DNA from: Neelides folsomi
Taxonomy: Eukaryota; Arthropoda; Collembola; Neelipleona; Neelidae
Assembly: GCA_034687125.1 (NCBI GenBank)
Contig: JAQGBZ010000196.1
Coordinates: 1 to 64,000 of the forward strand
DNA: 64,000 nucleotides
Direction of reading: 5' to 3'
Shown here: one piece after another, positions 4,640 through 51,407 of the stretch
Layout: each line of letters opens with the position of its first letter
Numbering within the stretch: the first letter of the stretch is position 1
Position numbers and translations under genes: made by a program
The notes under the pieces: generated by a model
The model's database searches: none
What the model was told of the DNA's origin: nothing
Seen by the model: the letters and a program-made list of their open reading frames with translations, nothing else

Positions 4640-4888
4640 TAAGGACAATAAATGTTCCAAGATGATGATGATTAGTTTTGTAGGCGGGTGGTTCAAAGAG
4701 GATCTCTCCGCTTGTTGGCTGTGTGCGGAAGAGTCTTGTGGGAGAAGGATCCTCCCTCCAGCCACTGCCATCACTCCGTCTGCTCCTCAATCGACTCTCC
4801 TCCATCGTCGATCTACGCCACCAAAATCCACAACCTGCCCAGACCGACTCCTTCGCCGCCACTCCCGGAATTACAATTACAATTAAAA
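4640..4888 (+). other. Probable 5' untranslated exon of EHMT
   Basis: This is a GC-richer island (about 4690-4888) in AT-rich DNA ending in a strong donor, AAAA|GTAAGT at 4889. The next good acceptor, TTTTTAAG at 5456, sits ten bases before the EHMT start codon. A TAA at 5458-5460, in frame with that ATG, rules out coding continuity, so this exon would be leader only. The 5' boundary is a guess. Confidence 0.5.
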
Positions 4889-5295
4889 GTAAGTTTCCAT
4901 TATTTGTTCACCCGTTACAATCATACACTCATTGGGTTCAATTTAATAAACGGCTTAAAGAGCCGAAAGGACAAGTTTTATTAAGGACGGTTGGAGTTTT
5001 GAACAAAAATTATTCCGATTCAATTAATTGGACCCCAGTGACTAAACTTTGGCCCGATTACAAAAGTATCCGACTACTGTTAAAATTTGAGAATTGAGAG
5101 TGAAAGTGATTTGCCGGATAGGAGTTCGTTTTCACTCATCTTCATATTTTAATTCGGTGCTTATACGTAGTAAATTATTAATTAGTATGCAGGTTAAAAT
5201 ATTAAAAGTTGATTATAAGAGCATTAGATTATAAAATAACTTGGTTTTACAATAAATTCACCATATTCATGGTTTTATTGTCATTTTATAATATT

Positions 5296-43637: not shown

Positions 43638-46600
43638 CTATCTTTTTTTCTTAAGAATTTTTTCTGCTCCTTTAACAAGCAGCTTCGAATAGGTAGGCTT
43701 CAAAATCTAAAAATTATACATTTTCATAAAAAAATATTAAAATAAAAATAATGAAATTCTTTTAATATTTATTTATAAAACAAAATTAAATCTTACATGA
43801 GTCCAAATAAGAGTTGAAAATTGGTCTATTTGTTTAGAAAACCGTGCGTATTTTCCAGTATACCTAAGAAAGAATAAAACAATTAATCTTTATCCTTACT
43901 AAATTTAATTATATGTATATACAGGGTGTTTCATAAAGTACGCGTCATTTTCAAATGACGAGCCATTGAAAATGATGCGTACTTTAAGAAACACATTATA
44001 TATTATTCATTCGCATAACTAATGAAAACTCACCATGTGTAACACCGGAATCCAATTAAAGAAAGGGAAACTCCCATTGATAAATTAAACATATTGGATA
44101 ATGTGGATAATCCAACGAGACCAAAAATCCCTGAAGTGATGTAGCTGATATTCGCTAACGCAAACAATGTCACAGGTGTCCTTGCACTTTTTAAAATGTT
44201 CTTGTTATCGTTTTGTCCTCGGAAATTTAAGTAAAGATCGTCAATCTCCTATAAAGTTAAAACTTTAGTTAATATAACAGTCAACCATTAAAAACAACTT
44301 TAATAGAAACTTATAGTTAAAAATCAAAATACTTTTTCCAAAGCATCCCGATAAATTAAAGCAAATTCTTCTCCTCCCATTTTCCTCCTTGCTTTAAAAA
44401 GATTCATAGCTTTTTCTCGATATCTCTCATGATCAGCTTCAAGCCTTTCCGAAGAGACATATGGCATGCTAGAACCACAAATATCATCCATTGTTGTGGC
44501 GTAAAGTTCACGAGCTGAGGCAGCAGCGAGTAAATTATCTGCTCTGGCCGTGGCTTCAAGCATCGTCTTCGGCTCTGGCAATTCAGTTCCTTTGAACACG
44601 GCTGTGTAAGCTTGGAAATAATGAAGAAGGTCTTTGGTTCGCAACTCCAATCCACCAATATTCTTCACTACAAGATTATCAGGTGCGAGAACAAATGGGA
44701 CTAATGTTTCCAATTGCTTCAAAAATTCTGGTTCAATGTCTAAAATAAAATAAAAGTTAAACATGTTATTATGTTAACATTATTAATTTACTTATTCAAG
44801 AGAAGTAATATGTAAAAATATATTTTCTACCTGAAATTCTCCCATCAAATGAGGGATTTGTGGCTGCTTTAAGGCCTGGATGAGGCATCAGGAAACAACT
44901 AATTTCATTAAAACAAGCTTTGATGTGTTTTCTAAGAGATTGCAATTCATTGTGTTGCTTTTCTGAAACCTGTTTAAAAATATGAATCTTTCAATGAATA
45001 ATAAAGTTAAATCTATTTAATATCTGATTGTTAAATATTTTATAAGTAGATTGTTAAAATCTTACCTCAAGTCTTCTTTCTAAAAGTGTTTTTCCACCTT
45101 CAAAACCATAAGGAGCTTCATATGGATAGCTCCAATCTCTGACCAGAAAACAAAGTTTTTGAAAAGGAGTCTCAGAAGAATCTTTCATGGCGAGGCGACC
45201 GTATTCAGTGAAGAGCTAAATTGTCAAATTATAACAAATTTACATTTTACTGATAATTTATTTAATTCCTTACGATGTGATTTGACTTTAAAAAACTATT
45301 TAACGAATGTTGATTTTGTGATTCGTATAACTTGTTGATTATTACCTGTAAATGTTGTAGATCATCTTCTTGAATATTTTGAGATAAATTGTAAATCTGA
45401 ACTGAACTTGTCATCGTACTTAAAGCAAATATCGTTGCACAATCCCGCACAGTGCTTTGACAATCAAATGCTCCCTAGTTCATTTAAAACTCCGTTTAAT
45501 TATTTAGCAAAACATTAAAATACTAAAAATCTATAACATGAACAAAATAGATTGAATAAATCCCTATTAATGTAAATATTTTGATCATTTAAACCTGCGT
45601 GTCCATTAAAATAACTGCAACTTCTTGACCAGATGACTTTTTAATTTTGAATATTTCCGACCAAAGGAGAATTCCAGTTGTGTCAAGTTCCGAACCTCCA
45701 CGCCAACTAAATCCGACCAGCGGATCATTTGGTTTCCCAATCCAATTTCCATTCCCTGATTGCTACAATATAAAATTTACATTTAAGTTTTCAAGTTCTT
45801 TTTTTCTTAATAAAAATCCTCATATCTAATAAAATATTTTTCAATTTTATATAAAACTCTTGTTTTAAATAAACTTTTACGACCATTTACCAGCGAACGA
45901 AGGTAACGAATAAAAAAGTCAAGTAGAAATGATTTCCCCTTTCGGAAGGCTCCAGAAATGGAAATAATAGCCACTGGGAGATCTTTAACATCATTTTGAA
46001 ATAATAATTTTGATAAGGAGTTTTCATCCAAATGGAACGTTTGTCCGTTTTCGCTATTCACAATTTGAACCGGTTGTAAGTCTTGTAAGTTTAGCGAGGC
46101 TGCAAGATGTTTTGACAGAACTGTCTCATCTTTTTCATCCTTAAAATATAAGCAAAACACAGATTAGGTGAATACTGATTGTAAAGTCATAAACAACCTA
46201 TCATTGCTTCATTAATTCCATATCTAAATGTAATTAATATTGATGAATTAAAAGTGGTTAGAGATTTATCAATGAACAAAACTTACATTTTTAACAGTAG
46301 ATATAGTGGTGAATTTATTCTCTTTGGATTCACTCGTCGAATATTTGAGAACATACTGAGAAGGCTTTGAAGGATCTTGAATAATCGGAAGTTTCCAATC
46401 CTCAATTTGTTCTTGACTTTTAACTTGCTGATAGCAGACAGAACCAGTGGAAATTGGTTTTGTATTCTGAAACACATTTGCAGGTACCTTCATGTTGCTC
46501 ATCTTTTTTAATCGCTTCTTTTGTTCATTTTTCATACTTTTTTCTACTCGAAGAAATAACGCCGCTTCTTTTTGACTCGGAGTGAGCGAATCGTTGTATT

Positions 46601-47222
46601 CTTCTAATATGGAAGAAAATCTTTCCATATCGTTTTTGTAAGCTACTGTGTATGCTTCTTTCTTCACCGGATCTAAAGATTCCCATTGTTGAGCTACGAT
46701 CCTCAAAATTTCTAAGAAATCAAGAAAAACATAAAATTTTAATATTAATTAAATGTTGAAATGTCGTTTAAATTTTTTTAATAATTGATTTTTAAGTGAA
46801 TTAAATGTTGAAATTAAAAGTTTAGAGCATATAGCATTCCATGTACTTATAAAAATTGTACCGGTAGGTGTTGAAGAAGGATTTGCAACTTTGACATCTT
46901 TCCTCACATCCCCAAGATATCGGAAATAAGGAGTAAGGGGACGTTTAGGCTTTGGAATTAACACTTTTTTTTCTCCCACGACTATTTGACTCGAAAAACA
47001 TCTGAAATGTTAAAAAGTACCAATTTAAAAAACGGACAATAAAAGACTAACATTAAGAATAAAAATATTCAAAGAAAATATTTAAGCAATTGCAAGGATG
47101 AAACCTCAATAATCTATGAATTTGTAATAATTAAAGTACCTTGAAATAAAGATCGGCGGTCTGAGCAGATGAAATTTGACATTTTTAACTTGCTTTGAAG
47201 ATATGATTTGCCTCAATGCCAT
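43638..47222 (-). CDS. atl: TFAM-like HMG box joined in phase to atlastin GTPase
   Basis: Twelve exons join in phase to 746 residues: 47222-47140, 47001-46862, 46711-46287, 46139-45891, 45762-45595, 45474-45346, 45215-45066, 44969-44831, 44739-44333, 44248-44034, 43863-43797, 43706-43638. Exons 1-3 (216 residues) look like TFAM: a basic presequence ending ISRCFSSQ, one HMG box (44-114, [13 protein letters not shown] ... [13 protein letters not shown]) and the TFAM-typical LTPSQ, but no second HMG box. Exons 4-12 (530 residues) are a complete atlastin: P-loop GAFRKGKS (279-286), [34 protein letters not shown], a helical middle domain, a two-pass membrane hairpin (about 655-702), and a basic amphipathic C-terminal helix. 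Atlastin fuses ER tubules. No Met lies between the exon 4 start and the GTPase, so its start must come from upstream. If the 146-nt intron 3 is retained, a stop follows within six codons, giving a 221-residue TFAM-sized protein. Confidence 0.8.
43922..43998. repeat. Short hairpin element, MITE-like, in an atlastin intron
   Basis: The arms 43926-43954 and 43966-43994 are 29-base reverse complements with two mismatches around an 11-base loop. The outer end reads ACAGGGTGTTTC next to TATA, a common terminal sequence of Tc1/mariner-like and related MITEs. Confidence 0.65.
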
Positions 47223-49028
<1,806 letters not shown>

Positions 49029-49540: not shown

Positions 49541-51407
49541 TTATCGGCTGACGGTTTGGGACACTTGCCAGACCCTAATTGTATTGTCAGAGTATCCGGC
49601 ATATAGCGTCTGCCCATCGGTTGACCACGCGAGGGAAAGGCAGTCAGGTTGAACATTCTTCGACGCTTGGGACACCACCTCCGGCTTCAATTCATCAACC
49701 ATGTTCTTCGTCTCGAGATCCTAAAAATTAAAATTCCAACTCAATTAATTAACGATTTTAATTATATCGTTAAAAATAAGTGATTTGCAAATATATTCAG
49801 TCCCATATCCGCAAAAAGTGTTACTTTTCATGATATTATCAATAAGCCTTTCATTCATCATAATAACTTGTGCACAAAAAGTGCTAAATGAATTTTGTAA
49901 ATTAAAGTTGACAATTACCCAAATCTTCACAGAGGGCCCGGTTGCAGCACAAAGCCAGTATCGGTTGGGAGAGAAGCACAACGCATTGATGATGTCGTTG
50001 TGGTCAAGAGTGTACAAGTGCTTCTCGTCGTGGAGGTCCCAAAGCATGGCCTTGGCGTCTTTGCCTCCAGAAGCACAGAGACTTCCATCAGGGGATACTG
50101 TCACTGTGTTAAGATATCCTCCGTGCTTATCGTGGGATGCCTTGAGCTTGCAATTGGCCAAATTCCAAACCTATGACCAAAATTGATAAAATTATTAGAT
50201 TGACTATTTCAATTTGGCTAAGACTTTGCTATAATTTATAATATTCGTCAGGTATTTATATAGCGAACAAAATTGTTTTAAATCATATCTCTCATACGAG
50301 GGAAAATTTTTCGTCATCATTTGAATATTGTTGATTTTTAATAAGTAGTTTAATTTAATTAAATAATTTTTTATAAACATGATTTTTTTATGTTTTTTCA
50401 CCTTAACAGATTTGTCCCATCCACATGAAACAATGACGGGCTGAGCGATGTTTGGAGAAAACCGAACGCACGAAACCCAATCTGAATGCCCCTCTTCTTG
50501 GATTGTGAATTTACACTGGGCGAGAGTGTTCCACAACTTGATGGTGTGGTCTCTTGACCCGGAAACAATTTGTCGGTTATCAGCGGAGAAAGCAACGCTC
50601 AAAACATCCTATCAAAATTAAACCTCAATTTAACCTCAATTTAATTTAATAACATTTAAATGTAATTGTTTGTATTAAAATGTTCAGTCCCATATCCGCA
50701 AAAAAGTGTTACTTTTCATGATATTATCAATAAGCCTTTCATTCATCATAACTGGTGCACAAAGAGTGCCCTGGATAGGAATTAAATGTGATTTGATTTG
50801 TAAAATACCTTAGTATGGTCTTCAAACCGCCTTGTCGATTTTCCTGCTGCCAAATCCCAAAGTCGAAGAGTTTTGTCCCATGAACCCGAAAGGGCAAAGT
50901 TCCCATCAGAGGAAAGGACAACGTCAGAAACAAAATGAGAATGCCCGTAGAGCCTCTTAACAGGAATTCCAAAGTTTGATTCGTTCCTCGTCAACTTCCA
51001 AACAATGAGGGTATTATCTAAAAAAAATACATTTTTCTTTTTAAACCGGCCATTGAAGTAATCGTTAATTAGGAATAAATATAAAATAATTGTAATATAT
51101 TTGATCAGTATTAAAATTGTTTTTTCAGATCTCACTTTTGTGAGGTCAAGCTTATCAACTGTTTTACCATCATTTCAAGTCCGTTAAACTCATAATTAAA
51201 AATTGTTTTTTTCAATTGGGATCATTGGATTAATGGGGGAGATGATGCTTGAGCATATGCTGAATATGGTGAAAGGGTTTTACCTCGTGAAGCCGACAGA
51301 AGAATGTTTTCATCTTTAGGGTTCGTGGCGATTTGGGTGACCCAACCATTGTGACCGCGGAGAGTCCCTCGGAGTTGAAGGGTCAAGGAGGATCCAGTCC
51401 CGTCCAT
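49541..51407 (-). CDS. Rack1: Receptor for activated C kinase 1 (ribosomal WD40 scaffold)
   Basis: Five exons (51407-51284, 51017-50809, 50608-50402, 50170-49919, 49720-49541) give 323 residues in phase. Seven WD40 blades are readable, with [104 protein letters not shown] and the closing [30 protein letters not shown]1 sits on the 40S head near the mRNA exit and docks PKC and other signalling proteins. Introns 2, 3 and 4 each carry a box C/D snoRNA candidate on the sense strand; RACK1/ASC1 hosts snoRNAs in vertebrates and yeast too. Confidence 0.98.
49793..49868 (-). ncRNA. Box C/D snoRNA candidate A in RACK1 intron 4
   Basis: On the RACK1 sense strand there is a C box ATGATGA (49861-49855) and a D box CTGA (49800-49797) about 60 bases downstream. 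The guide just before D, TTTTTGCGGATATGGGA, is complementary to CATATCCGCA, a segment I recall from the conserved 28S region ACTCATATCCGCAGCAGG. The fifth base before the D box would place 2'-O-methylation on the A of CTCA. About 90% identical to candidate B. The terminal stem is weak. Confidence 0.6.
50240..50329 (-). ncRNA. Box C/D snoRNA candidate C in RACK1 intron 3
   Basis: Sense-strand C box ATGATGA (50320-50314) and D box CTGA (50251-50248) are closed by a perfect 7-bp terminal stem, AATATTC (50329-50323) with GAATATT (50246-50240). Size (about 90 nt) and intronic position fit. Sequence is unlike candidates A and B, and I could not assign an rRNA target. Confidence 0.6.
50680..50757 (-). 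ncRNA. Box C/D snoRNA candidate B in RACK1 intron 2
   Basis: A near copy of candidate A: C box ATGATGA (50749-50743), the same internal sequence, the same guide (one extra T in the T run) and D box CTGA (50687-50684). Similarity runs past the boxes to a shared GTGCAC segment, so a whole unit of about 88 bases was copied between introns. Confidence 0.6.

Follow-up and report, generated by a model that had tools for sequence, protein, structure and literature searches.

The minus strand of the analysed window, a 64,000-nucleotide stretch of contig JAQGBZ010000196.1 from the collembolan Neelides folsomi, carries between positions 47222 and 43638 a gene that begins like mitochondrial transcription factor A (TFAM) and continues like atlastin, a dynamin-related GTPase of the endoplasmic reticulum (ER). 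The gene was modelled in 12 exons whose boundaries were placed by eye, and the resulting 746 codons are open, with consistent phases and no internal stop or frameshift (Table 1). Residues 1-216 are encoded by exons 1-3 and residues 217-746 by exons 4-12. The top PDB match of the protein from exons 1-3 is the TFAM chain 3tmm (4e-17), which we take to be the human protein, and the protein from exons 4-12 matches atlastin 3x1d, presumably that of Drosophila, at 4.2e-199 (665 bits over 502 residues). An earlier note on this DNA had described HMG-box (TFAM-like) exons spliced in phase to a full atlastin, and the open frame and both matches bear this out. Apart from 3k4x, a 798-residue chain, the PDB chains nearest to the neighboring PCNA are 4cs5 and 4hk1, presumably from shrimp and fruit fly respectively, followed by human PCNA, consistent with an arthropod source. 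Dioxygenase_C, a protein family typical of spider mites, had no match at 0.001. Two repeats were observed in the window. Intron 10 of the TFAM/atlastin gene holds an inverted repeat (43917-44003) with 38-nt arms that are 87% complementary and 11 nt apart, and it resembles a small transposon of the foldback type. Some 95 nt of sequence occur twice (49790-49884 and 50677-50769, 888 nt apart, 51 identical nt included), apparently within introns of a WD-repeat gene that resembles RACK1 and was named by eye.

Table 1. Exons, fusion intron and upstream space of the TFAM/atlastin gene (window positions; C719 and C518 are contigs of the same assembly that carry an unfused TFAM and an unfused atlastin)
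Feature	Position	Strand	Length and content
Exon 1	47140..47222	-	83 nt, ends in phase 2; start codon and basic, acid-free leader; end phase as in C719 TFAM exon 1
Exon 2	46862..47001	-	140 nt, ends in phase 1; CFSSQ.. and first half of HMG box A; end phase as in C719 TFAM exon 2
Exon 3	46287..46711	-	425 nt, ends in phase 0; remaining half of box A, linker with LTPSQ, about 70 codons of eroded box B
Intron 3 (fusion intron)	46140..46286	-	147 nt; donor agrees in place and phase with that of C719 TFAM intron 3
Exon 4	45891..46139	-	249 nt; 22 codons without Met, then atlastin core PVQIV.. and P-loop GAFRKGKS
Exon 5	45595..45762	-	168 nt; atlastin GTPase, ends ..DTQ; length of C518 exon 2
Exon 6	45346..45474	-	129 nt; atlastin GTPase; length of C518 exon 3
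Exon 7	45066..45215	-	150 nt; atlastin GTPase with VRDW; length of C518 exon 4
Exon 8	44831..44969	-	139 nt; later part of atlastin GTPase domain; length of C518 exon 5
Exon 9	44333..44739	-	407 nt; end of GTPase domain and middle helical part; aligned to 3x1d; length of C518 exon 6
Exon 10	44034..44248	-	215 nt; last of the middle part, then the region of the membrane hairpin (placed by position); aligned to 3x1d; length of C518 exon 7
Exon 11	43797..43863	-	67 nt; C-terminal tail; length of C518 exon 8
Exon 12	43638..43706	-	69 nt; C-terminal end KILKKKR and stop; C518 last exon longer, 123 nt
5' intergenic space	47223..47717	.	separates the gene from divergently oriented PCNA (ATG 47718, + strand); presumably serves both genes as promoter region

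The amino-terminal half resembles TFAM through its first HMG box. In the joined protein the Pfam HMG_box profile matches box A at residues 46-113 (1.4e-12, above the Pfam cut-off), and nine of the best 10 PDB matches of the HMG part are TFAM chains, the remaining one being mitochondrial Abf2. By composition count, the leader contains six K/R and no D/E within its first 36 residues. The window was missing from the matches of a genome-wide search with the HMG_box profile, which works exon by exon, as exons 2 and 3 each hold only part of the box. The TFAM half is identical to the TFAM encoded on contig C719 at 73 of 207 aligned residues. Nucleotide differences from that gene peak at third positions both in box A (0.43/0.31/0.64 at codon positions 1/2/3) and in the tail of exon 3 (0.48/0.47/0.72); the leader has no third-position excess (0.66/0.54/0.63).

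Beyond residue 113 the HMG profile finds no match in the joined protein. The second HMG box, which the earlier note had taken to be absent, is in fact eroded: the exon-3 remnant aligns to box B of C719 with a score of 29 (shuffle mean -9.5, SD 9.8), a value reached by 1 of 5000 shuffles in a test that was run after the likeness had been noticed by eye. Against box A the tail of exon 3 scores -1, as do 401 of 2000 shuffles or better. Judged from these alignments, box B has decayed in place, past recognition by the HMG profile, and a clean deletion is ruled out by the alignable remnant. A reading of the tail as Gcw_chp was rejected, its Pfam match (17.5 bits against a cut-off of 24) being taken as chance. 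We saw no counterpart in the window gene of C719 exon 4, which encodes the TFAM C-terminal tail.

The carboxy-terminal half is a complete atlastin in all but its start. The predicted fusion protein contains a GBP-type GTPase domain (Pfam GBP, 2.4e-88), and the P-loop, DTQG and RD motifs, which serve catalysis in this family, can be read from the translation. The match to 3x1d is colinear over residues 23-524 of the 530-residue atlastin half and takes in the middle helical region, the membrane hairpin region and the C-terminal tail. Identity to the unfused atlastin encoded on contig C518 is 293 of 530 aligned residues, and change at third codon positions exceeds that at first and second positions. 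The observation that the atlastin exon has no Met before its GTPase holds, as exon 4 has no in-frame ATG ahead of the domain and the frame closes upstream at a TAA within intron 3. A start codon before the GTPase core is thus absent from the window gene; C518 has one in the corresponding exon, and a further atlastin-type gene on contig C245 has one in its open frame. As predicted from its translation, the whole protein is not a TFAM, failing at box B and the tail, and it qualifies as an atlastin only in the part encoded by exon 4 and later exons.

Both parent families are also present unfused in the same assembly. The earlier note had proposed a search of the genome for a separate two-HMG TFAM, and C719 encodes one of 250 residues in four exons, matching 3tmm across both boxes at 2.5e-30. 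Its first three exons close in phases 2, 1 and 0, the same as in the window gene, and its third donor lies after box B, in phase 0 and at the same place as the fusion donor; exon 3 measures 446 nt in C719 and 425 nt in the window gene. C518 encodes an unfused atlastin of 555 residues (695 bits against 3x1d) with its ATG in the first GTPase exon. Exons 5-11 of the fusion gene equal C518 exons 2-8 in length and phase in seven of seven cases, both exon models having been drawn by hand, the window's first. A third, diverged gene with an atlastin/GBP domain was observed at C245:51466-55046 on the minus strand, with a changed P-loop, GSTREGKS, and a lysine-rich start (MKNKEKIKKKKKTFHGVQIV); its in-frame ATG lies shortly before the core, as far as the open frame can be read, and it is possibly a fast-evolving or non-canonical atlastin.

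Just downstream of the C719 TFAM (about 4836-4925) we observed a dispersed, partly palindromic repeat of about 90 nt, which looks like a small non-autonomous transposon. It is found on at least 15 other contigs, some of which carry it on both strands in overlapping positions; neither C196 nor C518 is among the contigs listed. This repeat led us to reject C719 as a foreign contig: the dispersed element beside its TFAM recurs elsewhere in the assembly, which makes it very likely that C719 is part of this genome. When C719 was compared locally with the window and the other fetched loci, three short TFAM loci left out, no match emerged at 1e-8. Since the same assembly holds the two-box TFAM of C719 and the unfused atlastin of C518, the window gene can be neither the only TFAM nor the only atlastin of the organism and is, on this sequence comparison, an additional chimeric paralogue.

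The presence of copies with clear full architecture elsewhere in the assembly could also suit an assembly artefact or a non-functional relic, an explanation to which we assign next to no probability. The 746 codons have stayed free of frameshifts and stops despite the low identity to both paralogues, and each half retains its exon-intron organization right to the joint. Furthermore, a search of the genome with the TFAM half listed just one contig, C719, with similarity outside the HMG box; for the rest of those listed, the match was confined to the box (best 3.4e-5).

The two halves meet at intron 3, where the donor AAAAAT|GTAAGT ends exon 3 at 46287 and the acceptor TTTTAAG| opens exon 4 at 46139. 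These sites and their shared phase 0 are as first reported, except that the intron between them measures 147 nt, not 146 nt, within the range of the other 21 introns of the three genes (84-244 nt). On splice-site matrices built from these few genes, the donor, at 7.6 bits, outscores at least 15 of 22 other donors; the acceptor, at 5.6 bits, outscores 7 of 21 other acceptors and is outscored by 14. Within 5 kb on the same strand, sites scoring as high number 10 of 227 GT and 26 of 279 AG, real sites included. An acceptor ending in AAG is uncommon and is also found in intron 1 of the C719 TFAM and in the modelled intron 1 of PCNA.

Coding potential was scored per codon as a mean log-odds value; the training set comprised PCNA, C719, C518 and the atlastin core and excluded the stretches under test. 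The exon-3 tail scores 0.47, the top of the six frames, against a maximum of -1.14 for intron segments of like length (5 segments only); this is low among coding segments of like length (mean 0.87, minimum 0.33, 259 segments). The head of exon 4 scores 0.67, again the top of six frames, against an intron maximum of 0.36 (203 segments). At intron composition, 69 open codons would arise by chance with a probability of 7e-4. Both sides of the joint therefore look coding in the fused frame. Taken together, the coding scores, the open-frame probability and the third-position change support selection that preserves the frame as far as the donor and again downstream of the acceptor; that one transcript joins the two does not follow from this. 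An origin of the first 22 codons of exon 4 in the last exon of TFAM or in the N-terminus of the C518 atlastin was tried and rejected: 1332 of 3000 shuffles were as good against TFAM exon 4, as were 605 of 3000 against the C518 N-terminus. This head is thus unlike either candidate, and the source of the joint itself was therefore not seen.

An atlastin that begins elsewhere would give the locus a different product. The claim that no other in-phase first exon is visible up to PCNA proved too strong in its wording, since a scan from PCNA to exon 4 for stretches running from an ATG to a phase-0 donor listed 17, most of them weak or inside TFAM exons; it stands in the sense that no well-supported separate atlastin first exon was found in that interval. 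The best candidate upstream of the gene is 47688-47596, with 31 codons and a donor of 5.0 bits. Intron 1 holds an in-phase ORF of 11 codons (47053-47021, 5.6 bits). A further ORF, of 12 codons and in a different frame (46897-46862), ends at the exon-2 donor (7.7 bits) and is in phase if exon 3 is skipped. The right phase of the 31- and 12-codon ORFs is what commends an alternative first exon, whether the upstream one, a start in exon 2 (46897) that bypasses exon 3, or an AUG brought in by a trans-spliced leader. We nevertheless regard this as very unlikely. Among 1000 dinucleotide shuffles of the 495-nt upstream stretch, 41.4% contained one or more ORFs of this kind with a donor of at least 4.9 bits, and 4.9% contained one of at least 31 codons; the coding score of 47688-47596 is uninformative because it is high in all six frames. 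A trans-spliced leader would itself have to bring the start codon, exon 4 having no in-frame Met before the GTPase.

Exon 3 offers starts of its own. In-frame ATGs occur from 46628 on, upstream of the phase-0 donor, and would permit an atlastin without the leader or a full box A. The locus could then be read as a degenerate paralogue of TFAM overlapped by a separate atlastin gene, which starts in exon 3 (at Met 46628 or later) and has neither a leader nor a complete HMG box. A box-B region that has lost its domain character yet keeps an open, coding-like frame is what would be expected if only the frame mattered. Against this, the profile still recognizes box A as an intact HMG box and its change is rich in third positions, for which reasons the TFAM half is not simply decaying, and we consider the overlapping arrangement unlikely. 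A second good phase-0 donor, AAG|GTACCT at 46488 (7.2 bits), was observed near the border of the linker and box B; if used, it would yield a shorter in-phase fusion that lacks the box-B remnant.

Retention of intron 3 would leave the TFAM half to end on its own. The frame then continues for five codons and a stop (NVSFVH*), and the protein is of 221 residues, as the earlier note had proposed in suggesting that one locus makes two proteins, a single-box TFAM-like form when the intron is retained and the fusion when it is spliced. While this frame is confirmed, the reading built on it is weaker than it seemed, and we judge it improbable. The note had seen no polyadenylation signal between the halves; this is correct for AATAAA and ATTAAA, neither of which occurs in the 147-nt intron ahead of the acceptor, and has to be amended by one GATAAA at 46270, which could speak for the short form. 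A retained-intron message that continued into atlastin would expose a premature stop, and the short form would have no recognizable box B or C-tail in a genome that has a full two-box TFAM on C719.

A true fusion, the other possibility raised at the outset, is the best reading of the locus: the donor sits where C719 TFAM intron 3 has its own, and the ATG that both other atlastin-type genes carry in the first GTPase exon is missing here. We conclude that this is probably a chimeric gene at the level of the DNA, with a TFAM-boxA-atlastin protein as its main predicted product.

Compared with TFAM (3tmm and others), the window gene shares a putative leader, box A and the LTPSQ linker, and has the exon phases and intron-3 donor of the TFAM of its own genome. 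It differs in that box B is eroded past HMG-profile recognition, the C-terminal exon is missing and the frame runs in phase into atlastin. With atlastin (3x1d, 3q5d, 5vgr) it shares the complete GTPase with VRDW, the middle region, the hairpin region and the tail, as well as, for exons 5-11, the lengths of C518 exons 2-8, but it has no start Met of its own and is preceded by 216 TFAM-derived residues and 22 of other source. Chimeric genes that arise through duplication and readthrough splicing are a known class. As in that class, both parent families are intact elsewhere and the fused copy uses an old splice site; what sets this case apart is the pair, a mitochondrial nucleoid HMG protein and an ER membrane-fusion GTPase. 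Searches of open-licence papers turned up no atlastin-TFAM fusion, no atlastin chimeric gene and nothing that links atlastin with TFAM and mitochondrial DNA nucleoids, and the papers listed for a single-HMG-box TFAM do not appear to concern such a fusion. Both halves come from known families, and the combined architecture was not found in print in these searches of open-licence papers.

The chimeric gene may have arisen when a TFAM duplicate came to sit just upstream of an atlastin duplicate in the same direction, with loss of the last TFAM exon and of the atlastin start codon, although the order of these events is conjectural. The old donor of TFAM intron 3 would now splice in phase to an acceptor 22 codons ahead of the atlastin core. 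The promoter region shared head to head with PCNA may drive a single chimeric message as the main transcript, from which one 746-residue protein would be made and, if stable, would consist of a mitochondrial-type leader, an HMG box, a decayed box-B spacer, and the atlastin GTPase, middle region, hairpin and tail.

Because the leader of the chimera, like presequences in general, would be expected to act before the late atlastin hairpin emerges, some routing to mitochondria is plausible, although the protein may instead stay at the ER. There, box A could bind mitochondrial DNA (mtDNA), the GTPase domain could dimerize and the hairpin could anchor the protein in a membrane. That an imported chimera holds mtDNA through box A while anchored by its hairpin in the inner membrane, with GTP-driven dimerization of the heads tethering or moving nucleoids, is a tentative proposal that we consider doubtful, and we know of no precedent for an atlastin behind a mitochondrial leader. 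If that reading were true, this organism would have turned a membrane-fusing apparatus of the ER into a membrane-bound, GTP-powered mtDNA anchor.

If the protein is made, it would join a nucleoid DNA-binding module and an ER membrane-fusing GTPase in one chain, and targeting, membrane anchoring and nucleoid binding would be testable in one natural construct. The locus also illustrates clearly how a chimeric gene may be born, since a single genome shows both parent families, the donor put to new use, the loss of the start codon and a domain in decay.
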